Positions 16,074 through 55,905 of a DNA stretch of 64,000 nucleotides are shown in pieces. A model generated the notes under the pieces. It was not told the origin of the DNA and made no database searches. It was given only the letters and a program-made list of their open reading frames with translations. Where the stretch lies: contig NZ_CP007440.1 of the NCBI RefSeq assembly GCF_001579845.1, forward strand, positions 6,842,029-6,906,028, given 5' to 3'. Position 1 is the first letter of the stretch. Every line of letters begins with the position of its first letter. This DNA is from Rhodoplanes sp. Z2-YC6860 (GTDB lineage Bacteria; Pseudomonadota; Alphaproteobacteria; Rhizobiales; Xanthobacteraceae). A program made the translations under genes and the position numbers.

Positions 16074-16109
16074 TGGCGCTCCCTACCGGAATCGACCGGT
16101 GTTTCAGCC
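16074..16109 (-). repeat. Partial copy of tRNA-Glu(CTC) 3' end (candidate attachment site)
   Basis: 36 nt match the 3' end of the tRNA-Glu gene at 55830-55905 (T-arm, acceptor strand and CCA), in the same orientation, with one single-base deletion in the T-loop; the match stops abruptly in the anticodon-arm region. A 3'-end tRNA fragment in direct orientation about 40 kb beyond the 3' end of the intact gene is the expected product of site-specific integration into a tRNA. No integrase gene is visible. Confidence 0.75.
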
Positions 16110-16149
16110 GAGAGAGTGCTGTTCCACTCGAATTTGGTTCATATCGACG

Positions 16150-17118
16150 CTACTCCGCGGCGGCGCCGCTCGCCTTGATCGGCCCGGCCCATTTCACGAT
16201 TTCGCTTTTGACGAACTCGCGCAGATAGGCCGGCGTGCGCTGCCCGGGCTTCGGGATCACCGCGCCGAGCTTGAGCAGCCGTTCCTGGACCAATGGCGTG
16301 TCGAGCGCCGTCATCAACGCAGCGTGCAGCTTGTTGACGACCGGCTCCGGTGTGCCTTTGGGCAGGAACATGGCGTTCCAGTTGTAGGCTTCGAAATCCT
16401 TCAGCCCCTGCTCGGACGCGGTCGGCACGTCCGGCATGGCCGCCGAGCGCTCTTTGGTCAGCACCGCGAGTGCCTTCAGCACCTTGCCCTCGACCTGCGG
16501 CAGTGCGCCGAGGACGAAGTCGCAGCCAAAGTCGATGCGCCCGGCCGTGAGATCCTGCATGACCGGCCCCATGCCGCGATACGGCACGTGCGTTGCGTTG
16601 AATCCTGCGGCGTCGGTCAGCAGCGCGCAGCTCAGATGAGTGGCGGACCCCACGCCCGCGGAGCCGTAGGTCGTCGGATGGGTCTTCGCGTATGCGATGA
16701 AGGCCTTGAGATCGTCCGCCGGGAGATCCTTGCGCACCTCCAGCACCAGCGGCGACTCCGCGATCAGCGCCAGCGGCGTGAAATCGTTGGCCGCGTCATA
16801 GGGCGGGTTCTTGTAGAGCGTCTGGCTCTGCGCGTGGGTGCCGGTGCCGCCCTGCACGAACATGTATCCGTCCGGCGGCGCCTTGGCCACGCGAGTGACG
16901 CCGACGGTGCCGCCGGCGCCCGCGATGTTTTCGACCACCACCTGCTGGCCGAGCGCCTCGCTCATGCGCTGCGCGAGCAGGCGCCCGATCACGTCGGCCG
17001 GGCTGCCGGCGCCGTAGGGCACCACCATCGTCACCGGCCGGGTCGGAAAATCCTGGGCCTGCGCGCCCGCGGAAACCGCGAGAAAGGCCGACAGGATTGC
17101 TGCGGGAAACTTTGTCAT
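16150..17118 (-). CDS. TTT-family (Bug) periplasmic solute-binding protein
   Basis: A protein of 322 residues with a Sec signal ending at 'GAQA'. The loops read 'VENIAGAGGTVG' and 'APPDGYMFV', with the later 'VPYRGMGPVMQDL'. It is the last gene of the minus-strand run that starts with the molybdenum hydroxylase, 68 bp after the RraA-like gene, so it probably serves uptake for that set. Ligand unknown; no TctA/TctB nearby. Confidence 0.88.
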   Translation of the reverse strand: MTKFPAAILSAFLAVSAGAQAQDFPTRPVTMVVPYGAGSPADVIGRLLAQRMSEALGQQVVVENIAGAGGTVGVTRVAKAPPDGYMFVQGGTGTHAQSQTLYKNPPYDAANDFTPLALIAESPLVLEVRKDLPADDLKAFIAYAKTHPTTYGSAGVGSATHLSCALLTDAAGFNATHVPYRGMGPVMQDLTAGRIDFGCDFVLGALPQVEGKVLKALAVLTKERSAAMPDVPTASEQGLKDFEAYNWNAMFLPKGTPEPVVNKLHAALMTALDTPLVQERLLKLGAVIPKPGQRTPAYLREFVKSEIVKWAGPIKASGAAAE

Positions 17119-17186
17119 CGTCGTCGCACTCTTACTTGCTCGATCGCTGCAGTTGACGTGAGTCGCGGCGCGCCCGGCCGCGTCGG

Positions 17187-17873
17187 CTAAACGTGCCCAT
17201 ACTTGTCGAGGGCCTGCTTCAGCGTCATGCCGGAGGCGATCTCCTGCCGGATCAGCACCTCCTTGCGGGTGAGCTCCTCGGCCGCCTCCAGCACGCTCAT
17301 GAGATGGCCCGCCGGAATGACGATGCCGCCGTCCTCGTCGCAGAGCACGAAATCGCCCGGATGAATCACCACGCGCTCGCTGGTCGCGCCCGCAAGATAG
17401 ACCGGCTCCTGCTTGCCGGTGACGCGCCAGCGGCCGATCGACTGCACCGCCGTGCGGTAGCGGGCATAGACCGCGAAGCTATGCTCGCCGAGCCAGCGCA
17501 CGTCGCGGATGCCGCCGTCGACCAGCGCGCCGACACAGCCGCGCTCCTTCATGCCGAGCGCGATCAGTTCGCCGAAATAGCAGATGCCGGCGCCGTCCCC
17601 GCTCCACACGCTGATCTCGTCGGGGCCGACGCCCTGGCAGGCTTCCATCTTCGCCGCGTCGCCGGTGCCCTCGTAGGGCGCCATCTGGCCGCGGATCGTA
17701 TAAGCAAAGCCCGCGAGCTTGCCTGCATCGGCGGGGAACGGACGGAAATCCGCCGCGAGCCCCTGATCGAACAACCCCATCTGGTCGAGCACGTCGGCCA
17801 CGTTCGAGGTGTCGACCGCGAGAAAGCGCTCGCGGATCATCCGCTTTGCAGCGGGGTCAATTCCGTCAGTCAT
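17187..17873 (-). CDS. RraA / HMG-aldolase family protein
   Basis: A protein of 228 residues of the RraA-like fold. 'SNVADVLDQMG' near the start, 'GALVDGGIRD' (the Gly-Gly-x-Arg-Asp active-site loop) and 'VVIHPGDFVLCDEDGG' are typical of 4-hydroxy-4-methyl-2-oxoglutarate / 4-carboxy-4-hydroxy-2-oxoadipate aldolases, which act late in aromatic ring-cleavage pathways. The Arg and Asp needed for aldolase chemistry are present, so an enzyme is likelier than the RNase E inhibitor. Its ATG shares one base with the stop of the SDR gene (TGATG), indicating coupled translation. Confidence 0.85.
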   Translation of the reverse strand: MTDGIDPAAKRMIRERFLAVDTSNVADVLDQMGLFDQGLAADFRPFPADAGKLAGFAYTIRGQMAPYEGTGDAAKMEACQGVGPDEISVWSGDGAGICYFGELIALGMKERGCVGALVDGGIRDVRWLGEHSFAVYARYRTAVQSIGRWRVTGKQEPVYLAGATSERVVIHPGDFVLCDEDGGIVIPAGHLMSVLEAAEELTRKEVLIRQEIASGMTLKQALDKYGHV

Positions 17874-18658
17874 CAGATACTCCCAATCAGGCCGCCATCG
17901 ACCCGAACCATGGACCCGGTCACGTAGGACGCGCGCGCGCTCGCGAGGAACGCCACCATGTCCGCATATTCCTGCGGCTCGCCGTAGCGCCGCATCGGAA
18001 TCGTCGCGGTGCTCGCCGCGACGATCTCCTCCAGCGGCCGCTTCTCGCGCGCCGCCCGCGTCTCGTCGAGCTGACGGATGCGCTTGGTCGCGATGCGGCC
18101 GGGCACGATCACATTCACGGTCACGCCGTCGGCCGCCACCTCGCGCGCCAGCGTCTTCGACCAGCCGACGAGCGTCGAGCGCAGCGCGTTGGACAGCCCG
18201 AGATCGGGGATCGGCATCACCACGCCGGACGACACGCTGGTGACGATGCGGCCCCACTTGCGCCGACGCATGCCGGGCAGCACGAGGTCGGTGACGCGCG
18301 TCACCGACAGCACCATGGCGCGGAAGTGCTTCTCCCACACCTCCGGCGCGGTGCCGGCCATCGGGCCGGCCGGCGGCCCGCCGGTGATGTTCACGAGGAC
18401 GTCGATCTCGCCCACGGTCTCGACGATCTCCTCCACCATCTCGCCCAGCGCCGCGAGATCGGAGAGATCGACGGGAAACGCCTCGGCGGCGCCGCCGTTC
18501 TTGACGATGTTGCCTGCGACCGCGTCGAGCGCGGCTTCGTTGACGTCGGAGACGCAGACCGTCGCCCCCTCCTCGGCCAGCGTTCCGGCGATCCTCTCGC
18601 CGAGACCGCCGCCTGCGGCCAGCACCAGAGCAACCTTGCCTTTCAGTCCCAAATTCAT
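17873..18658 (-). CDS. SDR-family oxidoreductase lacking the canonical Tyr-Lys pair
   Basis: A protein of 261 residues with a Rossmann fold. The glycine-rich loop 'AAGGGLG' (about 14-20) and 'LVNITGGP' (NAG-like position) are present, and the end has 'RVDGGLIGSI'. Where YxxxK normally stands the sequence reads L155-SNA-L159, so both catalytic Tyr and Lys are missing, although the upstream serines ('SVSSG') remain. A divergent SDR branch with 'LSN.LR' at this site is known to me from other bacteria, so this is probably not a sequencing error. It lies 7 bp after the aspartate-dehydrogenase-like gene and is coupled to the RraA-like gene. Confidence 0.82.
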   Translation of the reverse strand: MNLGLKGKVALVLAAGGGLGERIAGTLAEEGATVCVSDVNEAALDAVAGNIVKNGGAAEAFPVDLSDLAALGEMVEEIVETVGEIDVLVNITGGPPAGPMAGTAPEVWEKHFRAMVLSVTRVTDLVLPGMRRRKWGRIVTSVSSGVVMPIPDLGLSNALRSTLVGWSKTLAREVAADGVTVNVIVPGRIATKRIRQLDETRAAREKRPLEEIVAASTATIPMRRYGEPQEYADMVAFLASARASYVTGSMVRVDGGLIGSI

Positions 18659-18665
18659 GTCGTCC

Positions 18666-19541
18666 TCATGATCCGACGCGCAGCGGCGCGTTGAGCTTGC
18701 GCAACGCCGCGACCGCGCTGAGCGGGGTGATTTTTCCGGTCTTCGGGTTCTCGCTCGGAATGTTGCGGATCGTCATCTCGAAGCTCGCGGAATCGGCATC
18801 GACCATGATCTGGTGCGTGTTGCGCTCGATCGCTGGATCGGCCCAGATTTCCAGAACCGTCCGGTCCGGCCCGATACCCGCGAGCGACAGCGCCACCGCG
18901 ACGTTGAGATTCGCCGGAAAGCCTATCGCGGCTTCGCGCGCGGTGCCTTCGAACACCTTGGTCGGCACCTTGACGTTGCTGACGTCGATCTTGTTCTCGA
19001 CGAGATAGGGCGCGCCCAGAAGCCCCTTGATCGGCTTCGTCGTCTTCATCCGCACCGAATGGATCACGCCTTCGGCGGCGGCGGCCACCGCATCGAGGCC
19101 GAGCAGCGCGCCGGTCGGCACGATGATCTGGCCGTGGTGCCGGCCGGCAAGCTCAAGCAGTTCGGGATGGCTGAGCAGCGCGCCGACGCTCAGCACCATC
19201 ACCTTCTTGCCCGCCTCCAGCATGGGCCGGGCGATCTGTTCGAGGATCGCGGCCGGCGCGCATTCGATCGCAAGGTCGGCAACCTTCGGCAGATCGGCAA
19301 TCGCCGCAACCCGGACACCGCCGCCAAGCTCGGCCGCGACGCGCTCAGCCTTCGCGGTGTCGCGCGCCGACACCGCGACGAGCTCGATGCCCGGCACCGC
19401 GCCGCCTTTCAGTTTGTCCGCAAGCGTCGCGCCGATCGCGCCGAGACCGACGATCGCGACGCGGAGCGGACCGCCTTGGGTGATCGCGGCGGATGGCGGG
19501 GGACTGGCGGCTTCGTGCTTGTTCATCGGGTTCGCATTCAT
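18666..19541 (-). CDS. L-aspartate dehydrogenase-like protein (AspDH family)
   Basis: A protein of 291 residues from ATG 19541 (a GTG at 19556 and an ATG at 19526 are alternatives). After a low-complexity leader the NAD-binding motif 'VAIVGLGAIG' opens the fold. 'IVPTGALLGLDAV' and 'GFPANLNVAVALSLAGIG' are characteristic of aspartate dehydrogenase, which interconverts L-aspartate and oxaloacetate/iminoaspartate. In a catabolic operon it may act on another amino or keto acid; that is inference. It sits 56 bp after the molybdenum hydroxylase large-subunit gene and 7 bp before the SDR gene. Confidence 0.82.
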   Translation of the reverse strand: MNANPMNKHEAASPPPSAAITQGGPLRVAIVGLGAIGATLADKLKGGAVPGIELVAVSARDTAKAERVAAELGGGVRVAAIADLPKVADLAIECAPAAILEQIARPMLEAGKKVMVLSVGALLSHPELLELAGRHHGQIIVPTGALLGLDAVAAAAEGVIHSVRMKTTKPIKGLLGAPYLVENKIDVSNVKVPTKVFEGTAREAAIGFPANLNVAVALSLAGIGPDRTVLEIWADPAIERNTHQIMVDADSASFEMTIRNIPSENPKTGKITPLSAVAALRKLNAPLRVGS

Positions 19542-19597
19542 TGCGGCGGCCGGCACGGCGCCGGGCCTGGTTCGTGGGATTGCAGGGCTTGCTTCAC

Positions 19598-21829: not shown

Positions 21830-21830
21830 C

Positions 21831-22298
21831 TCAGCCCTCCCGCGCGGCGCGCTCGACCGCCGCGACGATGCGGCGATACGATCCGCAACGGCAGAGATTG
21901 AGTTGCATCTCGGCGAGGATGTCGTCGCGCGAGGGGCGCGGATTCTTTTTCAGCAGCGCCGAGGCGCGCATGATCTGCCCCGACTGGCAGTAGCCGCATT
22001 GCGGCACCTGCTCGGCGATCCACGCCTTCTGCACGGGATGCGAGGAGTCGGGGGAGAGCCCCTCAATCGTGGTGATCGCGCGGCTCCCCACTTCGGAGAG
22101 CGGAATTTGACACGACTGCGCGGCCACACCGTCGATGTGCACGAGGCAGGCACTGCATTGCGCAACGCCGCAGCCGTATTTCGTGCCGGTCATCTTGAGA
22201 GTTTCGCGCAGCACCCAGAGCAGCGGCGTGTCGGGATGCGCCTGGACCTGCCGGTCGACGCCGTTCACGCGCACGGATGTCTGGATCATCTGGGTCAT
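21831..22298 (-). CDS. Molybdenum hydroxylase small subunit, two [2Fe-2S] clusters
   Basis: A protein of 155 residues with the full ligand set: plant-type cluster C43, C48, C51, C63, and second cluster C101, C104, C136, C138 in 'CGYCQSG' and 'CRCGSY'. This is the electron-transfer subunit of the enzyme encoded immediately downstream, and the length matches IorA. It is the first gene of the minus-strand operon. Its upstream region carries the 11-mer atgcatacaat, a candidate GntR operator. Confidence 0.92.
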
Positions 22299-22336
22299 GC
22301 TGACGCCTCCTCGGCTTTGTATATCATTATTGTGTT

Positions 22337-23157: not shown

Positions 23158-23208
23158 TGTCGAATCCCCAGAAATTCTGCTGTCAGACGATGTATCCAAA
23201 GCCTCCAC

Positions 23209-23232: not shown

Positions 23233-23259
23233 GCGGCGCTGTCATCGGACATGCCCGGG

Positions 23260-41634: not shown

Positions 41635-43008
41635 CTACGCCAACGGTCGCATCCGACCGCTGTCGTTTTTCGGAAAGAATTGATTCGCCGGGATCGGCAG
41701 TCCCATGTTGCCGCGGAGCGTTTCGCTTTCGTATTCCCGACGAAACAGACCCCGACGTTGCAGCTCCGGCACGACCAAGTCCACGAAATTGTTCAGACTC
41801 CGCGGAATCATTGGCGCGCTCACCATGAATCCGTCGCAGGCGCCGTTCGCATACCAAGACTCCATCTGATCGGCGACCTGAACAGGGTCGCCCCGGAACG
41901 TCAGAAGTCCTCGAGCCGGAACGACCCGCTCATAGGTTTGACGGACAGTAAGCCCCTGCTCGCGGGCCATGGTGCCTATCGCCACCCGCATGCTGTTGAA
42001 GCCAAGGACTTCCGTCTTGTCCAACTCGGGAAACGGACCATCCAAGTCGTAGCCCGTGAGATCGTGAGCCACTGCCTTCGACAAGTAGCGAACCCCGACG
42101 GCTGGCGGGATCAGCGTGCTGAGTTCGTGATAGAACGCCTCCGCCTCCTCTGCGGTCGTCGCTACGACAACCGTCGCCGATGGAATGATCTTCAAGTGTT
42201 CGGCGGCGCGCCCATACTTGGCCATCCGCCCCCGTAGATCGGATGAAAGCGATTGCGCCTGCTTCTGATCCGCCGCGATGGCGAACACGCAATCGGCGGA
42301 TTTCGCGGCGAGTTCGAGCCCGGCCTCCGACTGCCCCGCTGTAAACACCACAGGATGCCCTTGCGGCCCACGCGTGATATTCAGCGGGCCCCGCACGGAG
42401 AAATGTTCGCCCTTGTGATTCAGAACATGCATGCGGGCGGGATCGAGAAAGCGCCCCATCTCCCGGTCCTGTATGAATGCATCGGAAGCCCAGCTGTCCC
42501 ACAGACCTTTTACGACATCGACAAATTCGACAGCGCGCGCGTAACGCTTGGTGCGATCCACGTGCTCGACGTAGCTGAAGTTCAAGGCATCCTGAGGGTC
42601 CGAAGTCGTCACGACATTCCAACCTGCGCGCCCGGCACTGAGGTGATCGAGCGACGCGAAGCGACGGGCGACCAAATAGGGCTCTTCGTAGGTGGTGGTG
42701 GCGGTAGCGACCAGGCCTATGTGTTCCGTGCACATGGATAGAGCAGACAGGAGCGTCGTCGGCTCGAACACCGCGGGACGATCGGATGGGGACGTAGCCG
42801 CCAACATTTCGGGATCGTCGAGCTGACGTACGCCGTTGCCGTCCGCGAGGAAGATCGCGTCGAACTTTCCACGCTCGGCGATTTGAGCGAGCTCGATCAT
42901 GCGCTTCAGATCCAGCACCGTGTTCTGCCATGCGTCCGGATGACGCCAGGCTCCTACGGCGCCGCCGACGGGGCTGGGTATGGTCAGCAGACTCATCATG
43001 AGTGCCAC
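41635..43008 (-). CDS. LLM-class flavin monooxygenase, NtaA/SnaA/DszA subfamily
   Basis: A protein of 457 residues, the size of NtaA/DszA enzymes. Family landmarks 'WRHPDAW', 'FLADG', 'EPTTLLSALSMCTEHIGLVATATTTYEEPYLVARRFASLDHLS' (read in part) and 'GRAGWNVVTT' are present. These FMNH2-dependent enzymes oxidise nitrilotriacetate-like, sulfone or other recalcitrant compounds with reduced flavin from a separate reductase. No reductase is encoded here. It is the last gene of the LysR-linked operon, 6 bp after a second LLM enzyme. Confidence 0.88.
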   Translation of the reverse strand: MALMMSLLTIPSPVGGAVGAWRHPDAWQNTVLDLKRMIELAQIAERGKFDAIFLADGNGVRQLDDPEMLAATSPSDRPAVFEPTTLLSALSMCTEHIGLVATATTTYEEPYLVARRFASLDHLSAGRAGWNVVTTSDPQDALNFSYVEHVDRTKRYARAVEFVDVVKGLWDSWASDAFIQDREMGRFLDPARMHVLNHKGEHFSVRGPLNITRGPQGHPVVFTAGQSEAGLELAAKSADCVFAIAADQKQAQSLSSDLRGRMAKYGRAAEHLKIIPSATVVVATTAEEAEAFYHELSTLIPPAVGVRYLSKAVAHDLTGYDLDGPFPELDKTEVLGFNSMRVAIGTMAREQGLTVRQTYERVVPARGLLTFRGDPVQVADQMESWYANGACDGFMVSAPMIPRSLNNFVDLVVPELQRRGLFRREYESETLRGNMGLPIPANQFFPKNDSGRMRPLA

Positions 43009-43014
43009 ATCCCG

Positions 43015-44166
43015 TCAGCTGGCCCTGGACAGCACGGCCTGATCTTCGATCGCGGGCCGGCGCAGGCCACGCTTCTCCAACTGCGGCAGCACATCCCGAG
43101 TAAAGCGCTTCAGTCCGTCCTCAAAGTCGACCCAAGTGAATAGGATGCCGTCCAGACCGGCGTCCGAGAGACAGGCCAGCCGCCCGGAAAGCGTGTCGGC
43201 AGACCCGATCAATTGGTATCCGCCGCCGCCTGCGGCGAAATGCCGACTGAGGGATCGGCGCGCCTCATCGGACATGCCCTTGGCGGTTCCTTGATGTCCC
43301 GAAATCCAGGCCTCGACGCTCTCCCGGTCGGCATTCTCGACTGCGTAGTGATCGCGATAGGCCTCCGCCTCTGCATCTGTGTCCCGTTGGACGACAGGTG
43401 CCAGCGTCCAGACTTGCACCTTCCGGCCGAATTCATCCCAGGCGAATTTCTTGTATTGAGCGATCTGCGCGGCCCAGGCCTCGGGATTGTCCCGGTGCAG
43501 GAGGATGAAGCAAAGGTCGGCTCGCTCGCAGGCAAATCGGCGTCCGACCTCCGATCCTCCTGCGCTCATGATGGGCGGCCGAGGTTGTTGAATCGGCTTC
43601 GGCTGCGACATGCCTTTCGAAATCGCGAAGAACTCGCCTCGGAAGTCGATCTCGCCGGATTCCGACCAGAGCCTCTCGACCACCGTGAGCCATTCGGCCA
43701 GGTGCTGATAGCGCGCCTCGTGCTCGCGGAAGGGCGCGCCGAACATTTCAAGTTCGGGCCTGTTCCAGCCGGCCACGACGTTCAGTGCGAGGCGTCCGTT
43801 CGAAATAATGTCGATGGTCGCGCATTGCTTCGCGGCAACCAGCGGATGGATGGTGGGCGCATGACTGGTGGCGAAGACGGCGGCGTGCCGCGTGGCCTGC
43901 GCGATGCCGGCACAGAACGTAAAGGGATCCAGGATCACACCGCTGGCGTGCTCGGGTTTTCCGGCGATGTATCCCTTCCAACGGGCATAGGCGACGATCG
44001 CCTCGAATCCGGCATCGTCCGCGAGGCGTGACGCCGACAACGCAGCCTGCCACGTCGGGCGGTATGCTTCTGGCACGGTCGTGTGGGCCGACCCCTTGCC
44101 GTTTAGACCGAACAAACCAAGCTTGAGCTTGTTCGGGCCGAACACCGGATTGCCGGAGATCGACAT
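43015..44166 (-). CDS. LLM-class flavin monooxygenase, SsuD/luciferase-like
   Basis: A protein of 383 residues, a different LLM branch from its neighbour. 'ARWKGYIAGKPEHASGVILDPFTF', 'SHAPTIHPLVAAKQ' and 'GRLALNVVAGW' (each read in part) are close to alkanesulfonate and dialkylsulfone monooxygenases. An FMNH2-dependent C-S or C-N cleaving oxidation is likely. It begins 2 bp after the alpha/beta hydrolase gene ends. The pair of distinct LLM enzymes suggests two successive oxidations. Confidence 0.87.
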   Translation of the reverse strand: MSISGNPVFGPNKLKLGLFGLNGKGSAHTTVPEAYRPTWQAALSASRLADDAGFEAIVAYARWKGYIAGKPEHASGVILDPFTFCAGIAQATRHAAVFATSHAPTIHPLVAAKQCATIDIISNGRLALNVVAGWNRPELEMFGAPFREHEARYQHLAEWLTVVERLWSESGEIDFRGEFFAISKGMSQPKPIQQPRPPIMSAGGSEVGRRFACERADLCFILLHRDNPEAWAAQIAQYKKFAWDEFGRKVQVWTLAPVVQRDTDAEAEAYRDHYAVENADRESVEAWISGHQGTAKGMSDEARRSLSRHFAAGGGGYQLIGSADTLSGRLACLSDAGLDGILFTWVDFEDGLKRFTRDVLPQLEKRGLRRPAIEDQAVLSRAS

Positions 44167-44168
44167 GG

Positions 44169-45044
44169 CTAGGTCCGCTTGGACGTATCGCGAAGCGCCG
44201 CAACAACCGACTGCAGAACGGGACCTTCCTGGCACAAGGCCTCGCAGGTGCCCTGATGGTGCGCGTCCAGCGCGAAAATCTCGACCGCGGTTCCACGTTC
44301 CTCCAGAGCTGCACCGAGCGGCCGGCCCGAGCGCTCGAACCTTCGACCGTCTCCCGTGTTCTGTTCATCGACGCCGAACACGATGATGGCACGCCGAGGC
44401 ACTCTCTGCAGATTGCAGATGACTGTGCCTTCCTCGCGGCGCGCGAGATCGCGGACGAGGTTCTCCGCAAACTCGGGCCGATGATCGTAGTTGGCGCCAG
44501 CGAGGACCACGGTGTCGAGGATGCCTTCGGGTACACCCGCCGTCTTCTGCCAATCGGTGCGGACGGCAGCCAAGGCTATCATCAGCGCCCCCGACGAATG
44601 TCCGGACATGACCAACCGGCGGCTATCGAGCCCGTATTTTGGCAGACGGGCGTGCAGCCAGCTCGAGAGCGCCGCGACGTCCTGCACGTGGTCGGGATAG
44701 AAAGCCTCGGGCGCAAGCCGATAACCGGCGCTGATGAACGCGATACCGCGTTCGAGATACGGCTTGCCGACGAAGCCATATTGACGAGGATGCCCCTCGC
44801 GGAACGCGCCGCCATGCAAGAAGACAAAACAAGGCGTCTCGGCGTTGACCGTCTCTGGCAGATATACGTCGAGCGTCTGGAAGATACTGCTTCCGTAGGG
44901 CACATCGAGCTCGTGTCGATAGCGAGAGAGCAGCGCATCGGTGCGCGCAAGGGACTCGCGGTAGAACGGCTCCCAACTGACCTTGAACAGCTCCGGCGAG
45001 CGGACGGTCTTGTAGTCTTTGTAGTCGTGCGAACGTGGCTGCAT
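44169..45044 (-). CDS. Alpha/beta hydrolase (HGG-type esterase / formamidase-like)
   Basis: A protein of 291 residues. Oxyanion motif 'FLHGGAF' (76-82) and nucleophile elbow GHSSG (148-152, Ser150) are present, with the catalytic His in 'LDAHHQGT' near the end. Similar to carboxylesterases and kynurenine formamidase-type enzymes. No signal peptide, so cytosolic. It lies between the Bug receptor and the two LLM monooxygenases, probably opening an ester or amide before or after the oxidation. Confidence 0.85.
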   Translation of the reverse strand: MQPRSHDYKDYKTVRSPELFKVSWEPFYRESLARTDALLSRYRHELDVPYGSSIFQTLDVYLPETVNAETPCFVFLHGGAFREGHPRQYGFVGKPYLERGIAFISAGYRLAPEAFYPDHVQDVAALSSWLHARLPKYGLDSRRLVMSGHSSGALMIALAAVRTDWQKTAGVPEGILDTVVLAGANYDHRPEFAENLVRDLARREEGTVICNLQRVPRRAIIVFGVDEQNTGDGRRFERSGRPLGAALEERGTAVEIFALDAHHQGTCEALCQEGPVLQSVVAALRDTSKRT

Positions 45045-47086: not shown

Positions 47087-47206
47087 CCGAACCACCGTGC
47101 AGGCTTAGATGTCGTCCATCCGCCCTGAGAACACAGGATGCGGCGGCATCAGCGCACATGCTGTGCTCGCTGACAAACACGCCGCGTGAGTCTGACGGCT
47201 CGTGGA

Positions 47207-48511
47207 TTATGGCGCGTAGGCCCAGGCTTCGATCATCACGGTCGCACCCGGAACCGGCAACGGCGCTTGCACCTCCACGGCGGAGAACGGCAGCGGCCGG
47301 CCGCCGAGGCGGCGCTCCCAGACCTGATAGATCGGATAGAATTCGTCGAGGTCGGTGTGGAATTGCAGCACGCGCACGATGTTATCGAGCGACGTGCCGG
47401 CGGCTCGACAGAGCTTCTCGATGTTGTCGATGATGTGCTCGGCCTGGACTTGCGCGCGCGAGCCGAAGCGCGGTTGTCGCGCGTCTTTTGCCGCCGCGAT
47501 CAGGCCGCCGTTGCTGTCGATCGCCATCTGCGCCGGCATGAACAGGAGGTCGCCGGCCTTCACGGCTTGCGGCTGGTGACGGAATGCCATCGGAACGCCG
47601 GCGTCGACGTGTCGCTTCTGCGCGGCGCTGCCCGGCTTCGCCGCCAGCACGTTGATCTCGATCGTGCCGTCATAGGACGCGAGCCCATGCGGCGCGATGG
47701 GGATGATCGACACCGACGGCCGCGTTTTTGCGAAGTGCCGGCACCAGGTTTCATTGAAGGCTGAGTAATCTTCCGGGTTGGTCAGATAGACCTGGGCATG
47801 GATGATGTCGTCGATGGTGGCGCCGGCCAGCGCGAGCGAGGGCATGATCCGCTGCCTGATGATGAACTCGGTCTCCACCTTGATCGGCTGACCGGCCCAT
47901 TGCTGGCCATCGGCCAGCAATGCGGCCTTGGCCACGCCGTTGCGATGCGGCTCGTCATCTTTTGCGCTCGCTGTGAGGCCGGGCACGAAGATGAAGTCGC
48001 CCACGGTCAGCGCCGCAGGCCAGCCTGCGGTTGGCCGGGAGGCGAGACGCTCGTCCTTGACATGGGCGATCTCGAATCCGGGACCCGGGATGATCCCGAG
48101 CGCCTGGATATTCATGTCGGCGCCTGGCAGCAGCAAGCCCTGCTGCGTGACGGAGGTCGATGGCGCGACCTTGCCTGCGAGGAATTCGCGCCGCACGTGC
48201 TGATAGGCAGGCACGGCCTTGACCGTCGCATAGTACTGGTCGGTGCGCACCAGGTTGTTGCGGTCGGAGCCGCCCGCGCGCAGAACCGCGTCGATGTTTT
48301 CCCAGATGCGCAGCGCTTCCTTCTCGCGCTTGGGCAAGCCGGCATGCGGGGCGTCCTCGGCCAGCACGTCCGGCGCGATGCCGTTCTTGAAATCCTGGGC
48401 CATGACGCCGGTGGCGAACACCCACCGGCCGGCCTTCATGCCCCGTGCGAACTTCACCTTGCCGGCGCCGAGTTCGACGGGGAGCAACGGTTCTGCATTT
48501 TTGTTGGTCAT
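47207..48511 (-). CDS. Triple RidA (YjgF/YER057c/UK114) domain protein, paralogue
   Basis: A protein of 434 residues with the same three-unit architecture as the protein at 451-1797 and clear similarity along its length ('ARGMKAGRWVFATG', 'VETEFIIRQRIMPSLALAGA', 'AICRAAGTSL'-like segment). The Arg position of active RidA is again replaced in every unit (P-S-T, P-S-V, F-S-A). The ATG at 48511 has a good aaggaaggg site. It is divergent from a Bug receptor gene, 143 bp apart, whereas the other copy shares an operon with one. Confidence 0.85.
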   Translation of the reverse strand: MTNKNAEPLLPVELGAGKVKFARGMKAGRWVFATGVMAQDFKNGIAPDVLAEDAPHAGLPKREKEALRIWENIDAVLRAGGSDRNNLVRTDQYYATVKAVPAYQHVRREFLAGKVAPSTSVTQQGLLLPGADMNIQALGIIPGPGFEIAHVKDERLASRPTAGWPAALTVGDFIFVPGLTASAKDDEPHRNGVAKAALLADGQQWAGQPIKVETEFIIRQRIMPSLALAGATIDDIIHAQVYLTNPEDYSAFNETWCRHFAKTRPSVSIIPIAPHGLASYDGTIEINVLAAKPGSAAQKRHVDAGVPMAFRHQPQAVKAGDLLFMPAQMAIDSNGGLIAAAKDARQPRFGSRAQVQAEHIIDNIEKLCRAAGTSLDNIVRVLQFHTDLDEFYPIYQVWERRLGGRPLPFSAVEVQAPLPVPGATVMIEAWAYAP

Positions 48512-48654
48512 TCCGCCCTTCCTTGCCGTCCCTATCCTTGTTTGTTGCCGGCAGCATCGCATCGCCGCCGCGCCGGGGGAAGATGGGGCGGACTTTGACT
48601 CCGGCGCGCGTTCAACACACTATTGCAGAGCTGAATTGCAGGCGCGGCGAACCG

Positions 48655-49647
48655 ATGAAGTTTGCATTGCGATGGCTGAGCTGGATCGCGGCTTGTCTTG
48701 CCGCGACATGCACCGCCTGGGCTCAGGCGGACAACTATCCGAACCGCACCATCACCGTGGTGGTGCCGTTCCCGGCCGGCGGCCTGACTGACGTGCCCGT
48801 GCGCCTTGCTGCGTCCCTGCTGCAGGAAAAGATCGGTCAGCCGATCGTCATCGAAAACCGCACCGGTGCCTCCGGCACGATCGGCGCAGCCTACGTCGCG
48901 CGCGCCACGCCGGACGGCTACACGCTGTATGCCAACTCGATCGGCGATGCGCAGAGCATCCATTTCATGCCGCTGCCCTATCATCCGATGGACGACTTTG
49001 CGAATATCGGCTGGATTGTCGACGGGCCGCCGCTGATCCTGACGATCGACGCCACGCTGCCGATCAAGACGATCGCCGAACTGGTCGCTGACGCCAAGGC
49101 CAATCCGTCGAAGTACAACTTCGCAACGGCCGGTCCGGCGTCATCGCCATACGCGACGCTGATGCGATTCAATGCCGTCGCGGGGACCAAGATCCAGGCG
49201 GTGCATTATCGCGGTTCGGGCGAGGCTGCGACCGCCGTTGCGACCAGCGCGATCCAAGGCACCTTCACGTACTTCTCGCAGGGCAAGGCGCTGGTAGACG
49301 GCGGCAAGCTGCGGGCGCTTGCGATCGCCGGCCCCAAGCGCATGGACGCCTGGCCGGACGTTCCGACCTTGATCGAAGCGGGCTTCGACATCGATATCCG
49401 CGGCTTCGTCGGGCTCGGGGCGCCAGCCAAGACACCGAAACCGATCGTCGCCTATCTCAACAAGCGCCTCAACGAAGTGTTGCAGACCGATACGTTCAAG
49501 AAGCCCATGGCGGTGCTCGGCATGGCGCCGCCGCCGGCCGCCGACAACACGCCCGAGAAGTTCGAAAAGTTCTTTCGCGACGAGATCGCGCGGCAGGGAG
49601 AGCTGGCAGCACTGACGGGACTGAAGATCGCGCCACAGAAGCAATAG
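48655..49647 (+). CDS. TTT-family (Bug) periplasmic solute-binding protein
   Basis: A protein of 330 residues with a Sec signal ending 'CTAWAQA'. Canonical loops 'IENRTGASGTIG' and 'TPDGYTLY', later 'VHYRGSGEAATAV'. ATG 48655 is chosen because the signal peptide starts there, although the frame is open for another 210 bp. It is divergent from the second triple-RidA gene. No permease genes follow; the next 199 bp hold no recognisable gene. Confidence 0.88.
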   Translation: MKFALRWLSWIAACLAATCTAWAQADNYPNRTITVVVPFPAGGLTDVPVRLAASLLQEKIGQPIVIENRTGASGTIGAAYVARATPDGYTLYANSIGDAQSIHFMPLPYHPMDDFANIGWIVDGPPLILTIDATLPIKTIAELVADAKANPSKYNFATAGPASSPYATLMRFNAVAGTKIQAVHYRGSGEAATAVATSAIQGTFTYFSQGKALVDGGKLRALAIAGPKRMDAWPDVPTLIEAGFDIDIRGFVGLGAPAKTPKPIVAYLNKRLNEVLQTDTFKKPMAVLGMAPPPAADNTPEKFEKFFRDEIARQGELAALTGLKIAPQKQ

Positions 49648-49846
49648 ACGCGCGGTCTGCTTCGAAAACTTAGGACGTGTACTCATAAAAACGATGTTGT
49701 TATCGGAGGGGAAGCGGACATTCTTTTTTGGGCTGTACATGTCGCCTTTTGGCCCAAAGCGGATATAGGAACCCGAAAGACATTAAGCGGACGTGACGCC
49801 GGCAACCATCACGGGCGCGGCGTCGGCGGACAGAATGGCCGCCTGA

Positions 49847-50257
49847 TCAGTCATTCACGCTGATGTCCGTAAAAAGGAACCCCGCAGGCATCTTGGTGAA
49901 GACGAAGATGCTCTGGCCGCAGAAGATGGAGTAAGAGTCATTTTTGTAGCCATCGCGGGCATAGATGGCTTTCCCGCCCTGGATACACGCGCGGATTTTC
50001 GCCGTGAATTCGGGCTTATAAATCTTCTCGCGGAATTGGGCAGCGTCGCGAGCAGAGTCGTCGTTCATGAACGGCAGCCGGGTCATGCCGGCGACGGCGG
50101 CGGAATCGTTGGCCTTCAGCGCCGCACGAAATTTCTCAATGAAGCCAGCGAATTCCTTCTGCACTGCAGGAGAGGCGACGGCTTCCTTCGCCCGGGCGAA
50201 GGCGGGAGCAAGTTGCACGAGAGCGGCTGCGAGCACAATTCTCAACAAGACTCTCAT
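49847..50257 (-). CDS. Small secreted protein, unknown function
   Basis: A protein of 136 residues with a clear signal peptide (about 1-23, ending 'AFARA'). The mature part has an NTF2-like feel ('FIEKFRAALKANDSAAVAGMTRLPF', read in part, and a C-terminal 'AGFLFTDISVND'), with two cysteines (about 91 and 113) that could pair. Such folds often bind small ligands. The family is not identified. It stands alone between a Bug gene and a LysR gene. Confidence 0.65.
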   Translation of the reverse strand: MRVLLRIVLAAALVQLAPAFARAKEAVASPAVQKEFAGFIEKFRAALKANDSAAVAGMTRLPFMNDDSARDAAQFREKIYKPEFTAKIRACIQGGKAIYARDGYKNDSYSIFCGQSIFVFTKMPAGFLFTDISVND

Positions 50258-50518
50258 GGTTGGGCTCCGTCCAGCGATTTATCCGACGCCCGCAAATCTA
50301 GCATGCCGCCAAAGAGTCAAAAGCGCTCTGCCAGAAAACCAGCCGAAATTTCACCGGGCAAACTCCTTGATCGAATGAAATGGCCTGATGCCGCTATTGG
50401 ACCCATAGCGAACTCGCCCAGAGCGTCTTACGATGCTGCAATACATAGAGTCGGTGGGGCATAACCGCTGACGCGGCCCGGCCGCCTCGCCCCGCCTCAT
50501 CAAGCACCGCGTCATAAA

Positions 50519-51472
50519 CTACGTTTGCTTCAGGCCCTTCCCGAGTGGCTTGACGATTTCCCGCGCGCTCTCGATGAACAGCGTTGTCGCGGGATTTATC
50601 GTCCGGTTCTTCAAAGTGAGAATTCCGACCGGATACGTCGGAATGGACACGTCCGTCGACCAGGCCTTGAGCGAAAGGTTCTCTCGGCAATAGTGCAAGA
50701 CATTGCCGGGCAGAAATGAGAGGTAGCGCCCTGTCGCAATGAGACTGTTCAGCACTTGAATCGAACGGGTCGTTACGATTTGCCGCGGCAAGTCGAGACC
50801 TTCGCCCCGAAAGGCCTCGGCTATCAAATTCCAGGGATGGCTGTCGAGCGGCGGCAAACACCAGGGCCTGTCGACCAACTGACTCAATCGCACCCTGCGG
50901 CCGCGGACCAGGTGGCTTTGCCGCGCGGTTACCAGCAGCGTGTGCTCCTGGTACAGGATATTCGCTTCGAGATCGTCGGGAACAACGACGGGAAGCCGGC
51001 CGATGATCAAATCGAGGCCGCGCGACTGCAATTCGCGGTGCTGCAAGTCCGTCAAGCCGCCTCCCAGCGTCACCTCGAAGATCAGCCGCGGGTGTCGCTG
51101 GCTGAGCCTGTCGATAATGGCGCCGACCATGCCTGACGCGACGGCGTCGCTGCTTCCGATCCGCAGTTCGCCGGCGGTCGGGTCGGCCATCAGATCGAGC
51201 TCCGTAATGCCCGTCTGAAGATCATTGAAAACTGCGACACTGCGCTTGAGAAGCGCCTGGCCGTAGGGCGTCAAAGCCACCCCACGACGATCACGATCGA
51301 ACAGGCGCATGCCGAGCGTTTGCTCCAAGTCCGCGATCGTCTTTGATACAACGGGCTGCGTGATGGCCAATTGTCGGGCGGCCTTCGCCATGTTGCCCGA
51401 CTGCCCCACGGCGATGAGGACTTCGAGCTGGCGCAGCTTGAGCCTGCGGCTGACGTGCTCTGCGCGTTGCAT
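50519..51472 (-). CDS. LysR-family transcriptional regulator (GbpR/CbbR-like)
   Basis: A protein of 317 residues from ATG 51472 (an ATG at 51523 would add 17). The helix-turn-helix 'GNMAKAARQLAITQPVVSKTIADLE' is typical of the GbpR (galactose-binding-protein regulator) branch. It is divergent from the TauE exporter gene with about 190 bp between starts, which includes AT-rich DNA at 51480-51535. It is likely to regulate that gene and perhaps the convergent ThDP enzyme gene. Confidence 0.87.
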   Translation of the reverse strand: MQRAEHVSRRLKLRQLEVLIAVGQSGNMAKAARQLAITQPVVSKTIADLEQTLGMRLFDRDRRGVALTPYGQALLKRSVAVFNDLQTGITELDLMADPTAGELRIGSSDAVASGMVGAIIDRLSQRHPRLIFEVTLGGGLTDLQHRELQSRGLDLIIGRLPVVVPDDLEANILYQEHTLLVTARQSHLVRGRRVRLSQLVDRPWCLPPLDSHPWNLIAEAFRGEGLDLPRQIVTTRSIQVLNSLIATGRYLSFLPGNVLHYCRENLSLKAWSTDVSIPTYPVGILTLKNRTINPATTLFIESAREIVKPLGKGLKQT

Positions 51473-51663
51473 CTTCTGATATCCAAAAATTCTATCGAGA
51501 TAGAGAAAAATAGAACTATTCATCTATAGCAAATCGACCCACCTTCCACCCGTGCCGCAAAGGCGCGCAGACCTGCAAATTGGCGAAGAGTTCGACCTGT
51601 GGGTCGCCGCAGAGGGGGCAGAATGGAAAAGATCAAAACCGCAACTTTGGTGTCGGCAACGCG

Positions 51664-52416
51664 ATGAACCTCGGTGAAGTGACGATCGTCGCTCTGGTCT
51701 TTGCTCTCGCCGGCCTGGTCAAGGGCGCAATCGGGCTCGGCCTGCCGACCATCTCAATGGGACTGCTGGGCGCCCTCATGCCTCCGGGGCAAGCTGCGGC
51801 CATTCTGATCGTGCCCGCGTTGGCGACCAACGCGTGGCAAATCTGGGACGGCCCCGCGCTGAAAGCGCTATTGCTACGGCTGTGGCCGGTGCTGGTGTGC
51901 ACCATTTTCGGCACCTTGGCGGCTGTCGGAATTCTCACGAAAGTGGATGTCCGGCTGACGGGCGCGTTACTCGGCGCCATCCTGATCGTCTATTCGATCA
52001 CTGCCTTGAGCGGCATAGGGTTCAAGGTAGCGCCACGCTCTGAACCGATCGTGGGCGCCGTGGTTGGGCTGACCACTGGTATCATCAATGGGGCGACTGG
52101 AATTTTCGTCGTACCTGCGGTGCCCTACATTCAGGCGATCGGCCTCTCAAAGGACGAACTGGTACAGGCGCTTGCGATTTCAGCATTCGTCTCGTCGATA
52201 GCACTGGGCCTTGGCTTGGGCATGAACAAGGGCCTCACCAGTGCCGTCGCAGCGCCGGCGGTGGTCGGTCTAGCCGCTTCGTTCGTTGGTATGGCAATGG
52301 GCAAGGCACTGCGCTCTCGCTTGTCAGCTGACACTTTCCGTCGCTTCGTGCTGATCGGCCTTCTTGCCCTCGGCGCAAGCATGATCTGCCGCCATATTTA
52401 CTCGGCCGGAAGCTGA
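51664..52416 (+). CDS. TauE/SafE-family membrane transporter
   Basis: A protein of 250 residues with about eight hydrophobic helices and the duplicated family signature ('LAGLVKGAIGLGLPTISMGL' and 'VVGLTTGIINGATGIFVVP'). TauE/SafE proteins export sulfite, sulfonates or small organic anions. No strong ribosome site precedes ATG 51664, but upstream residues do not look membrane-like. The neighbouring C-S lyase-like gene makes sulfite or sulfur-anion export reasonable; this is inference. Confidence 0.85.
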   Translation: MNLGEVTIVALVFALAGLVKGAIGLGLPTISMGLLGALMPPGQAAAILIVPALATNAWQIWDGPALKALLLRLWPVLVCTIFGTLAAVGILTKVDVRLTGALLGAILIVYSITALSGIGFKVAPRSEPIVGAVVGLTTGIINGATGIFVVPAVPYIQAIGLSKDELVQALAISAFVSSIALGLGLGMNKGLTSAVAAPAVVGLAASFVGMAMGKALRSRLSADTFRRFVLIGLLALGASMICRHIYSAGS

Positions 52417-52519
52417 CCGATTCGAGCCAGCGATCTGAACAACCTATTTCGCACCGTTCGAAGGCCGAGCACTTGTTGTTGGAGGCAGAGCGGACATCAG
52501 GAGTTTACGAGTACACGCC

Positions 52520-54286
52520 TCAGTCCGCCTGTAACAGCCGCGGCAACCACACCGAAATGACCGCCGACGTTCCCTCTCGGACGCTTTTCATGCCGCGTTG
52601 CAGTGCTGGTCCGACTTCTTTGGGATCCGTCACGTTTTCTCCGTATGCGCCCGCTGATCGGGCTTCAGCCGCAAAATCAATCGGCGGCTCGAAGTAGCCG
52701 CCGTGGTAGCCGGCTTTGGCAGCAAAGCCATCCGGATAGCTGCGCGACACGCGAAGCGTTCCGGTCGAATAGCTGCGGTTCTGGTAGACGATGGTGAGGT
52801 ACGGAGCCTTGTATTGCGCAGCCGACCACAGCGAATGGATTCCCGGGGCGAACATGTAGAAGCCGTCTCCGGTGATCGCGACGACGTTGCGATCGCGGGC
52901 CGCGAGCTTGGCGCCGAATGCTGCACCCGGCGCCCATCCGCCGCTGCTGGCAGGATTGCAGAAATAGGAGTTCGGCCGGGCGCATTGAAGATAATCGTGA
53001 ACCTGACTGATGCCGATCGTGTCGTCGAACACGACCCAGTCATCCTCGAGCGCCTGTCCGATCTGGTACGAGAGCCAGCGTACGTCGATCGGCGTGTTGC
53101 CCGCCGCAGCCTTTGCGTTGTCAGCGAGCGCCCGGCGGCGCCTTTCGGACGTCTCGCTCCAGCGCTTGGCACGGGCGGCAAAGCGTTCGCGGTCGGCTGC
53201 CGAGCTGATGGCGCGAACCTCCGATTCCAGCGCCTCGAGCGTCAGCAACGTATCGGCGGTGAGCCGCAGGTCGGCGGTGAATTCCATGATCGGGATGCGG
53301 CGCTTGGACGGCTCGACATCGACCATGGCAACGAACGCATCGTCCGACGGCGCATTCGGTCCGATCATCCAGGGGATGTCGACGTCGAGCACGAGCACCA
53401 CGTCGGCATCCTTAAGGCTGACGCTCCCCTGATAGAGCGGGTGGGTGAACGGGAAGCAGTGGTACGAACGTTTGGCCGACTGCGCGACCGGCAATCCCAT
53501 GAGTTCGCAGAAGCGGACAAGCGCAGGCACAGTCGCCGGATCGCGGCCCGAGCGGGACACCACAACGATGGGATTGTCCGCTTTCACGAGCCGCGCTGCG
53601 AGCTCACGAACGCCGTCCGGCTCCGGCGCCGCCGGACGCCCCACGCCGAGCTGATCCAAGGTGGGGAAGCGTGCGTTGTCCGCCTTCGCAAGCGACACTT
53701 CGCGCGGAATGCTGAGATAAACTGGCCCGCGCGGCTCGGTGCAAGCGACCTGCAGGGCGCGTGAGACGGTCAAGCCGGGATTGTCCTGGAATTTCAGCAG
53801 GTGATCCCATTTGGTGTATTGCCGCACGATGCCGTTCTGGTCGAACGTTTGTTGCAGCCAGAGGTGCCCCTCCGGCTCGCGCGCGCCGATCATGCTGCCT
53901 GGATACGCAGTCGGCGGAATTCCGGCGGTGATCAGCACCGGCAGTCCTGCATGCCAGGCCGTGTGGACTGCGCCGCCATAGTGCTGGGTTCCGCAGTCGA
54001 CGTGGGCCGCCGTCGCGACCGGCTTGCCGCTGACCGCAGCGCAGCCGAGCGCAGCGTTGAGGTTCACATGTTCATGCGTCACGGAGATCAGCTTCGGCGC
54101 CTTGCGGCCCTGAGCCTCGGCCTTGGCGATCGCTTCCTGATAGAAGCCGATCTCGGAGCCGGATGTGAAGAACACGAACTCCACGCCCGCCTCGGTCATC
54201 GCGGCGACGATGGCCTCGCCATTGTCCGCAACGGGGATATTCACCCACTCGCGGCTTTGGTTGCGGCGGTCGCCGGTGTAATTCAT
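52520..54286 (-). CDS. Thiamine diphosphate-dependent enzyme, acetolactate-synthase-like
   Basis: A protein of 588 residues with three domains (PYR, central, PP). The activating Glu is in 'VTHEHVNLNAA' (E72). The ThDP/Mg motif 'ITGDGFYMF' is followed about 25 residues later by 'YQNRSY'. The catalytic set is intact. Relatives include acetolactate synthase, sulfoacetaldehyde acetyltransferase, oxalyl-CoA decarboxylase and benzoylformate decarboxylase; the active-site segment matches none of these closely. Convergent with the TauE gene and 54 bp from the MalY-like gene that lies upstream. Confidence 0.85.
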   Translation of the reverse strand: MNYTGDRRNQSREWVNIPVADNGEAIVAAMTEAGVEFVFFTSGSEIGFYQEAIAKAEAQGRKAPKLISVTHEHVNLNAALGCAAVSGKPVATAAHVDCGTQHYGGAVHTAWHAGLPVLITAGIPPTAYPGSMIGAREPEGHLWLQQTFDQNGIVRQYTKWDHLLKFQDNPGLTVSRALQVACTEPRGPVYLSIPREVSLAKADNARFPTLDQLGVGRPAAPEPDGVRELAARLVKADNPIVVVSRSGRDPATVPALVRFCELMGLPVAQSAKRSYHCFPFTHPLYQGSVSLKDADVVLVLDVDIPWMIGPNAPSDDAFVAMVDVEPSKRRIPIMEFTADLRLTADTLLTLEALESEVRAISSAADRERFAARAKRWSETSERRRRALADNAKAAAGNTPIDVRWLSYQIGQALEDDWVVFDDTIGISQVHDYLQCARPNSYFCNPASSGGWAPGAAFGAKLAARDRNVVAITGDGFYMFAPGIHSLWSAAQYKAPYLTIVYQNRSYSTGTLRVSRSYPDGFAAKAGYHGGYFEPPIDFAAEARSAGAYGENVTDPKEVGPALQRGMKSVREGTSAVISVWLPRLLQAD

Positions 54287-54340
54287 GGGTTTATCCTCCG
54301 CCTCTGACCGGACGCCGTTGCGATCAATCCAATCGATGAC

Positions 54341-55528
54341 TTACCGCCCAGCCCGCAAATCCTGAAATGCCGCCTCTAACCGCGTCATGGCGTCGTCAAG
54401 AATCGGTCGCGGCGTCGCAAAGTTGAAGCGAAGCCATCGCTCTCCACCAGGCCCGAATTGAGAGCCGGGGCTTGCAAATATCCGTGCTCCTGTCGCGACC
54501 CTGTCCGCAACGTCTTCGGGCGGCAGGCCTGTCCCGGAAAAATCGACCCACGCGAGGTATGTGCCGTCGAGATGCATCGATCGTGCGCCAGGCACAGCGG
54601 CTTCAATTCGCTTGTCGAAAATATCGCGATTCCCGGCGAGGTACGGCATCAGCGCATCGAGCCATGCTGCTCCGGTTCGCCAGGCGGCCTCGGTCGCCGC
54701 CATTCCAAATGCGTTGTAGGAACCGAGCCCGCTTGCCGCGATGCGCGCGTCCAGCCGTTTCTTCAACGCCGGATTTGAAACGATGCAGGCGCCGACATGG
54801 GCGCCGGCGAGATTGAAGGTTTTTGTTGCGGCAACGCACGTGATCAAACGGTCGGCGATCTCAGGCGCGGCCGACATTGTCGGAATATGCTTGGCGCCGG
54901 CGAACACGAGATCGCAGTGAATTTCGTCGGAGACCAGAATCAAATCGCGGTCCGCGCAAAAGGATGCCAGCGCTCGCGTCTCGTCCGCGGACCACGCGGT
55001 GCCGCCTGGATTGTGCGGACTGCAGAAGAACACGACCTTCGTGCGAGTCGTGACCTTGTCGCGCAGCAGGTCGAGGTCCATCGAATAACGGCCCTCGATC
55101 TCGACAAGCGGCACGTCGAGAATGCGCCGCTCGTTGGCAAGGATGATCTTGCGAAACGCATGATAAGCGGGCGGAAAAACCACGACCTCATCGCCGGGCG
55201 CGGTGACCGCTTGCAGGATGAGACCGAGCCCTGAAACAATTCCCGGTGTCGGGCTGACCCAACTCGGATTGAGCGTCAGCCCGTGACGGCGAGCCATCCA
55301 ATCCACCAGCGCGGCCGCCCAGCTTCCGGTGTCTGCGTAATAGCCGTGAACGGCGCGATCGACCTCCGCCTTCATGGCCTCTGTCACGCCCGGCGGCGCG
55401 GCGAAATCCATGTCTGCAACCCACATCGGGATGGCATCCGGCGCCTCGATGCCCGACAGACGGGCAATCTGATCCCATTTTGAGGAGTGAGTGCCGCGGC
55501 GCTCAATGATGCGGTCAAAATCAAACAT
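54341..55528 (-). CDS. PLP-dependent C-S beta-lyase (MalY/PatB type aminotransferase fold)
   Basis: A protein of 395 residues. Fold-type I landmarks: 'NPGG' (173-176), 'SDEIHCDLVF' with Asp201, and PLP Lys236 in 'AATKTFNLAG'. The start 'FDFDRIIERRGTHSSKWD' and 'PMWVADMDF' are diagnostic of MalY/PatB, which cleave cystathionine or cysteine S-conjugates to thiol, pyruvate and ammonia. ATG 55528 fits the family N-terminus. It is the last protein gene before the tRNA-Glu boundary. Confidence 0.9.
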   Translation of the reverse strand: MFDFDRIIERRGTHSSKWDQIARLSGIEAPDAIPMWVADMDFAAPPGVTEAMKAEVDRAVHGYYADTGSWAAALVDWMARRHGLTLNPSWVSPTPGIVSGLGLILQAVTAPGDEVVVFPPAYHAFRKIILANERRILDVPLVEIEGRYSMDLDLLRDKVTTRTKVVFFCSPHNPGGTAWSADETRALASFCADRDLILVSDEIHCDLVFAGAKHIPTMSAAPEIADRLITCVAATKTFNLAGAHVGACIVSNPALKKRLDARIAASGLGSYNAFGMAATEAAWRTGAAWLDALMPYLAGNRDIFDKRIEAAVPGARSMHLDGTYLAWVDFSGTGLPPEDVADRVATGARIFASPGSQFGPGGERWLRFNFATPRPILDDAMTRLEAAFQDLRAGR

Positions 55529-55829
55529 GAGGTGACAACTTCCAATCCAGGGTGGCGCGCACAGGTCCATTCCAGATACGCGGAGCGCTACAACCGACTC
55601 TTAACGCAAGGTGCAGGATAGAGCCGCTTCCAAAGCGTCGCTCAGCACCGTCGCGGAATTTTTCAGGCAAGCCTCCAGCGCGCCCGGCGAGCAGGTCGCC
55701 GGGCGATCGCGCATGCCGATTTTAGAAGAGAAGCTCCGTTCGCCATCGGCCGTTCGCCGAAGCGCGCAGATGGATATTTGACGGATATTAGCCGGCTTTT
55801 TCGCCCGAGAGATAAACTATTGAAATCAT
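55529..55829. other. Gene-free interval adjoining the tRNA-Glu 3' end
   Basis: About 300 bp with no convincing gene. It is the place where a phage-type integrase would be expected if 16074-55866 were an intact island, and none is present. AT-rich patches occur at 55775-55830. Confidence 0.55.
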
Positions 55830-55905
55830 TGGCGCTCCCTACCGGAATCGAACCGGTGTTTCAGCCTTGAGAGGGCCGCGTCCTAGACCGCTAGACGAAG
55901 GGAGC
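55830..55905 (-). tRNA. tRNA-Glu (anticodon CTC)
   Basis: 76 nt including encoded CCA. Acceptor stem GCTCCCT pairs with AGGGAGC; the anticodon stem CGGCC/GGCTG encloses loop CTCTCAA with CTC at positions 34-36; T-stem ACCGG/CCGGT with loop TTCGATT. D-arm contains TAGCGGTCTAG. A 36-nt partial copy of its 3' end lies at 16074-16109 in the same orientation. Confidence 0.95.

Follow-up and report, generated by a model that had tools for sequence, protein, structure and literature searches.

Does the DNA on the 3′ side of a tRNA-Glu gene in the soil bacterium Rhodoplanes sp. Z2-YC6860 represent a single genomic island, bounded by the tRNA and a displaced copy of its 3′ end? The question arises in a stretch of 64,000 nucleotides (NZ_CP007440.1, positions 6,842,029 to 6,906,028; hereafter the window), whose sole tRNA according to ARAGORN and Rfam (RF00005) is an intact tRNA-Glu(CTC) at 55830–55905 on the minus strand. 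An earlier reading made from the letters alone (the sequence-only reading) had proposed a 39.8-kb island between this gene and a tRNA remnant at 16074. Integration at tRNA-Glu was supported by the scar itself, its breakpoint in the anticodon loop, integrases beside the scars of relatives, and near-empty sites in other genera. Position 16074, however, was not the outer edge of the inserted DNA, as the segment from 3.9 to 16.07 kb is likewise absent from the same place in a relative (G006) and the interval does not look like one element. We consider it probable that the locus holds decayed, layered mosaic DNA from repeated integrase-mediated insertion at the 3′ side of tRNA-Glu(CTC). That integrase-mediated insertion took place there, whether in layers or as a single element, is highly likely.

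The displaced fragment lies at 16074–16116 on the minus strand. As proposed earlier, the last 37 nt of the tRNA recur at 16074–16109 with one deleted base, in direct orientation and on the 3′ side of the gene; local alignment extended the similarity to 16116, giving 44 columns with 41 identities, 2 mismatches and 1 gap. The 3′ limit of the fragment is exactly the CCA end of the tRNA, and its 5′ start falls in the anticodon loop, where the last agreement is CTCTC. A BLAST search of the 8,193,889-base genome with the tRNA and its flank returned only four matches, namely the tRNA itself, the fragment (E = 3.6e-11), the tRNA-Glu(TTC) gene at 3871896–3871967, and one 15-mer. The local alignment score was 37, whereas the 52-kb interval, shuffled 100 times under a second-order Markov model and searched on both strands, gave at most 20. 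Given this E value and its uniqueness in the genome, the fragment is neither a chance match nor a dispersed repeat, the latter being an objection that the sequence-only reading had itself raised. The tRNA region had no match in a plasmid collection.

Similar fragments occur in relatives. Among 11 genus genomes (the present one and ten further genomes, each in 60 to 550 contigs), tRNA-Glu fragments were found in three: the present genome, G003 and G010. All three start in the same anticodon-loop stretch, and the 5′ breakpoint of the present scar lies within a few nucleotides of those in G010 (L074) and G003 (L121). Among the tyrosine-integrase matches listed for 14 relatives, three touch tRNA-Glu(CTC) or its fragment, as judged by position. 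On contig C4 of G010, an integrase ORF (open reading frame; 116–1534) stands beside a scar of the same kind (1587–1632), which is followed by about 17 kb and then by backbone collinear with −4836 to −33344 of the present genome, negative positions lying to the left of the window. The intact tRNA-Glu of G010 lies on a different contig, which stops 0.5 kb behind it, so that neither contig spans the element. On the 8-kb contig C177 of G003, an integrase (418–1716) adjoins the fragment at 1864–1907, and G004 carries a truncated integrase about 150 bp behind its intact tRNA-Glu. The integrases of G010 and G003 share 39% identity. Compared with the 18 integrase-match loci of the present genome, they reach 24–33% over 138–458 residues and, at one locus, 40–43% over 58–67 residues, so that no close relative of either was found among the 18. 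A supposed further G010 fragment on contig C67 proved to be a complete tRNA-Arg, and some other partial matches (G004 C154, G009 C22) resemble tRNA-Glu(TTC).

These comparisons bear on the plainest alternative, that the fragment resembles the tRNA by chance, or is an ordinary duplication of the tRNA, since decayed, that arose without an integrase. It would suit a fragment of only 43 nt in a window that holds no integrase, but chance is excluded by the genome-wide E value and the shuffle scores, and the exact end at CCA together with the comparable breakpoints next to the integrase genes of G003 and G010 speaks against the alternative as a whole, which we regard as very improbable.

Under repeated insertion, the 3′ side of tRNA-Glu(CTC) would be an integration hotspot of the genus. 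A tyrosine integrase would cut in the anticodon loop and insert an element whose copy of the 3′ half rebuilds the tRNA, while the old 3′ half would stay as a fragment at the far end. The intact gene would then be the integration target on the attL side, and 16074–16116 an attR-type scar that was presumably made by an integrase in the last traceable event. Further events would displace older DNA from the tRNA, so that the DNA would be youngest beside the tRNA and oldest beside the backbone. The DNA between the scar and 55830 would be a decayed mosaic, its integrase gone, and is predicted to be probably unable to excise alone.

The flanks of the locus were compared across relatives. On the right, the backbone begins with hyp119 (−), an RluD-like gene (+) and RpoH (+) at 55992–58533, and of 15 tRNA-bearing loci of relatives, 12 have hyp119 and the RluD-like gene beside tRNA-Glu; of the other three, L070 and L076 end at contig ends and L081 (G020) lacks both genes there. 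A query spanning the tRNA and RluD was matched in 59 of 61 genomes, and a shorter one in 9 of the 11 genus genomes, the genomes missed by these queries (G002, G005, G045) being 76–84% complete. The right flank of tRNA-Glu is thus fixed across relatives. For the left side, 36 ORFs, drawn from the first 4.2 kb of the window and from the 40 kb to its left, were sought behind tRNA-Glu in 24 loci (23 places, L066 and L100 being on the same contig), with thresholds of E ≤ 1e-25, at least 45% identity and at least 35% of the query, and weaker rows were dropped. Backbone genes were reached in 8 of the 24 loci. The DUF2927 gene, which in the present genome ends at −6943, 62.8 kb from tRNA-Glu, has an orthologue (57% identity) starting 347 bp behind the tRNA in L109 (JACQTM010000195.1), followed by the next backbone gene. 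In L115 (JALHLQ010000009.1) the orthologue starts 1.7 kb behind the tRNA and is followed by six backbone genes in order, including orthologues of EipA and a CheA-like gene; in G026 it starts at 4.6 kb, and in L111 the next backbone gene starts at 5.3 kb. Near-empty sites are therefore present at L109 and L115, in other genera of the same family, and none was found within the genus. The same tRNA is accordingly followed by differing DNA in relatives, between fixed flanks.

The DNA between the tRNA and the left backbone falls into layers. The segment from −6807 to −4841 is collinear in five genus members where the place is readable (G001, G004, G006, G008, G010), and −4844 to −1914, with a P-type ATPase gene, is present in G001 and G006. 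G006 alone matches −904 to 3908, in collinear blocks (−904 to 389, 1818–2741 and 2981–3908) of 82–88% DNA identity with 390–1817 unmatched, so that the layer common to G006 occupies positions 1–3908 of the window; up to its tRNA-Glu G006 then carries 17.1 kb of DNA that is unrelated, short matches aside. The stretch 3909–55829 was not seen at this place in any of the five. Of its two parts, 3909–16073, beyond the scar, has single genes elsewhere in relatives, and 16117–55750, the 39.6-kb tRNA-proximal segment with mosaic catabolic cargo, is not behind tRNA-Glu in G006. DNA that is more widely common farther from the tRNA is what would be expected from repeated insertion at the tRNA end, and age may thus follow distance. 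The comparison with G006 indicates that the scar at 16074 is an internal seam and not the outer boundary of inserted DNA.

The content of the interval bears on a simpler explanation, in which the 39.7 kb between 16074 and 55830 came in as a single element, by one event, and the integrase was lost later. One scar, one intact tRNA and coherent catabolic content would fit it. Pfam searches of 41 ORFs between 16 and 55.8 kb (part of the interval's ORFs; 8 of the 41 without a family) returned transport, hydrolase, oxidoreductase and regulator families, bearing out the catabolic character described in the sequence-only reading. Its pieces nevertheless have differing matches. A gene for a thiamine pyrophosphate (TPP)-dependent enzyme (52522–54333, minus strand; NF006203) is 93–95% identical in DNA to G010 and G007 and 88% to G008, and a block of a RidA-like gene (−) and a TctC gene (+, 48445–49647) at 47118–49668 is 86–88% identical to G010 and G007, in G007 from 48157 only. 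In both relatives this block adjoins the TPP gene, without the LysR regulator and TauE exporter genes that here lie between the two (49669–52520). Against backbone identities of 72–85% for G010, 75% for G007 and 72–85% for G008, 52.5–54.3 kb stands out clearly and 47.1–49.7 kb less so, and the TPP gene has probably spread lately within the genus. In G010 the TPP/RidA block occurs as two similar copies, on short contigs whose breaks fall within the TPP gene (L128, L129, L131; C109, C111, C2), which suggests multi-copy DNA or a strain mixture.

Other parts of the interval also argue against a single event. The stretch of 36–47 kb is nearly unmatched in the genus, with one 400-bp piece of about 70% identity (G001, G005, G006) among the matches listed (E ≤ 1e-40, 27 scored candidates per genome). 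Two luciferase-like monooxygenase genes lie at 41635–44235 on the minus strand. The second matches best outside the genus, at 61% in a genome from another family of the order, followed by 57% in another genus of the family, compared with 43% at best within the genus; it was matched in 56 of 299 genomes, including the present one, at E ≤ 1e-60. The stretch of 25.9–30.6 kb has a paralogous cluster elsewhere in the present genome and in several relatives. The interval thus has the appearance of a mosaic, not of one element, and we consider the single insertion unlikely. Under repeated insertion, later gene exchange would have shuffled the interior.

Several observations weigh against repeated insertion. 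None of the 18 PF00589 matches of the genome (E ≤ 1) falls in the window (6842029–6906028), and no recombinase, transposase or conjugation protein was found among the 41 ORFs, in agreement with the earlier statement that no integrase is visible. Neither an excisionase nor a transfer gene was found by Pfam on the 41 ORFs or by PHROGs on gap ORFs. The 41 ORFs likewise included no relaxase, coupling protein or type IV secretion gene that would indicate an integrative and conjugative element (ICE), and no phage family, and PHROGs returned no match for 7 ORFs of the window. Integrase fragments, whose search the sequence-only reading had proposed, did not appear either: with the integrases of G010 and G003 as tblastn queries, the window, L082 and L083 gave chance matches only (best E 0.67), and of 44 loci scanned with a small integrase profile, the window among them, only L072 and L110, which hold the same G004 contig, showed integrase-like ORFs. 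For 3909–16073 there is no second scar, the genome-wide BLAST showing one fragment only. The gene left of 16074, which an empty site would place next to tRNA-Glu, was seen there in no relative and on no tRNA-Glu contig among 61 genomes, many contigs ending near the tRNA. In 16 of the 24 loci, many of them short, no backbone gene was reached, and the order of the layers is drawn from five members of the genus. GC and tetranucleotide profiling, also proposed earlier, showed no step at 16 or 56 kb, and composition was rejected as boundary evidence since neither end has one; 40–56 kb alone is lower in GC, its 4-kb pieces having 61–62%, whereas 75 reference pieces average 64.1% (standard deviation 1.7%).

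The remaining points on this side concern the sequence directly behind the tRNA, at 55751–55829, and a further alternative: that the scar came from a different tRNA-Glu locus, carried in by transfer or rearrangement of a segment, in which case the DNA now behind the present tRNA did not split it and 55751–55829 is its native flank. About 80 bp of this flank, a possible element end, have a similar counterpart in G007; such recurrence could mark a native flank, which a simple insertion would displace. The flank starts with the motif RRTTTCAANRRYTT, which also stands behind tRNA-Glu in G001 and G003. In G004 and G010, whose loci are linked to integrase genes, tRNA-Glu is followed by other flanks that lack the motif. 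A scan of nine genomes allowing at most one mismatch found it in 35 places, compared with 8 for a reversed control pattern. Half of the six exact matches lie behind tRNA-Glu and half have no tRNA within 1.5 kb, and at tRNAs near integrases in the present genome the motif was seen only loosely, at tRNA-Lys.

Other occurrences of the motif speak against an imported scar. Six of the 35 places are behind tRNAs, and these include tRNA-Arg in G010 and tRNA-Pro in G006 besides tRNA-Glu in four genomes. It is absent behind tRNA-Glu where the backbone follows closely, at the near-empty L109 and L115 and on the backbone-leading G026 contig (L076). Two G026 contigs, C74 (L077) and C76 (L076), share 129 bp through tRNA-Glu(CTC) and then part, one leading to the backbone and the other having a motif-like flank, as if occupied and unoccupied sites coexisted in the sample. 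With this mixed motif evidence, we lean weakly towards 55751–55829 as an element end, and we judge the imported scar to be improbable.

Repeated insertion at a tRNA gene that leaves a scar is an already known kind of event, here with visible layers. Our literature search found no paper joining Rhodoplanes with a genomic island, tRNA and integrase. Bradyrhizobium is a related alphaproteobacterium. Strain USDA76 of that genus carries a symbiosis ICE of about 0.77 Mb at tRNA-Glu (PMC9174649). The present locus shares with it a tRNA-Glu gene as integration site, but has 40–52 kb of catabolic genes without transfer genes. In Islander, a tDNA island is defined by three features, the tRNA, its fragment and an integrase, and a subsite in the anticodon loop is among those listed (PMC4383910). 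Like these islands, the locus has a regenerated intact tRNA, a displaced, directly oriented 3′ fragment on the 3′ side of that gene, and a crossover centred on the anticodon (subsite A), with the breakpoint placed where similarity stops (PMC4383910). Unlike them, it has no tyrosine integrase inside the interval by genome-wide PF00589, Pfam on the 41 ORFs or PHROGs on 6 interval gap ORFs, whereas Islander requires one, and the fragment is not the outer edge (PMC4383910). The hot spots of Sinorhizobium meliloti similarly show repeated integration at particular tRNA genes, with attachment sites covering the tRNA 3′ part, but they hold phage-related sequences and islands with integrases (PMC11476347).

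The gene content of the zone touches on the history of TctC genes in this strain. TctC is the binding protein of the tripartite tricarboxylate transporter, and the genome study gives 434 such genes in 8.193 Mb (PMC5994714). It judges transfer not to be the main route of their record expansion, on two grounds: low-GC islands hold these genes at low density (11 of 434), and 234 of the 434 have their best match within the genome, with 102 possibly acquired by transfer (PMC5994714). We counted 7 TctC genes in the 51.9 kb of 3.9–55.8 kb, or 135 per Mb, with a profile built from six proteins of the zone itself, compared with 18 (60 per Mb) in 15 evenly spaced 20-kb genome pieces, 2 in four 20-kb flanking pieces, and 3 in the unrelated 17 kb of G006 at the same place. 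The enrichment is modest and only suggestive, being post hoc and counted on clustered genes; the Poisson P is 0.02 when 53 per Mb is taken as the reference and 0.04 when the sampled pieces are. Unlike the published islands, which were seen by low GC, the zone has near-normal GC (PMC5994714); it thus escapes the low-GC-island argument of that study, but not its best-match argument (PMC5994714). Since an insertion zone of 52–63 kb shows no composition step, composition-based finders could miss it. It is conceivable, though in our view doubtful, that the tRNA-Glu site is a composition-matched exchange point passing TctC and catabolic cassettes among genus members, and that GC-hidden transfer contributed notably to the 434-gene expansion, which is ascribed mainly to duplication within the lineage. 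The TctC density of the zone and of G006 opens the published view of transfer to direct test (PMC5994714).

The last gene before the tRNA encodes a PatB-family C–S (carbon–sulfur) lyase of aminotransferase class I/II (54341–55570, minus strand; PF00155, TIGR04350). A 178-bp piece 83% identical to this gene lies near an integrase at tRNA-Lys(CTT) (L197, 3091–3267; genome positions 6589090–6589266). Of 13 loci around the integrase matches of the present genome (L189–L201), 8 hold a tRNA (Gln, Phe, Met, Gly, Lys, Thr, Val and Ser), and other tRNA-linked islands therefore probably exist in this genome. Near tRNA-Leu(CAA), at another place in the genome, a 230-bp stretch (L202, 1933–2163) matches window positions 49753–49924 and 50344–50400 at 89–95%, the corresponding stretch in the window being interrupted by about 420 bp. 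A repeat of about 515 bp at 7505–8021 has at least 26 further copies in the genome at 86–97% identity (27 candidates scored, 14 copies compared), and partial copies occur in L135 and L200. An ORF at about 4040–4873 on the plus strand, just beyond the end of the similarity to G006, encodes a collagen-like Gly-X-Y sequence with 18-bp tandem repeats.

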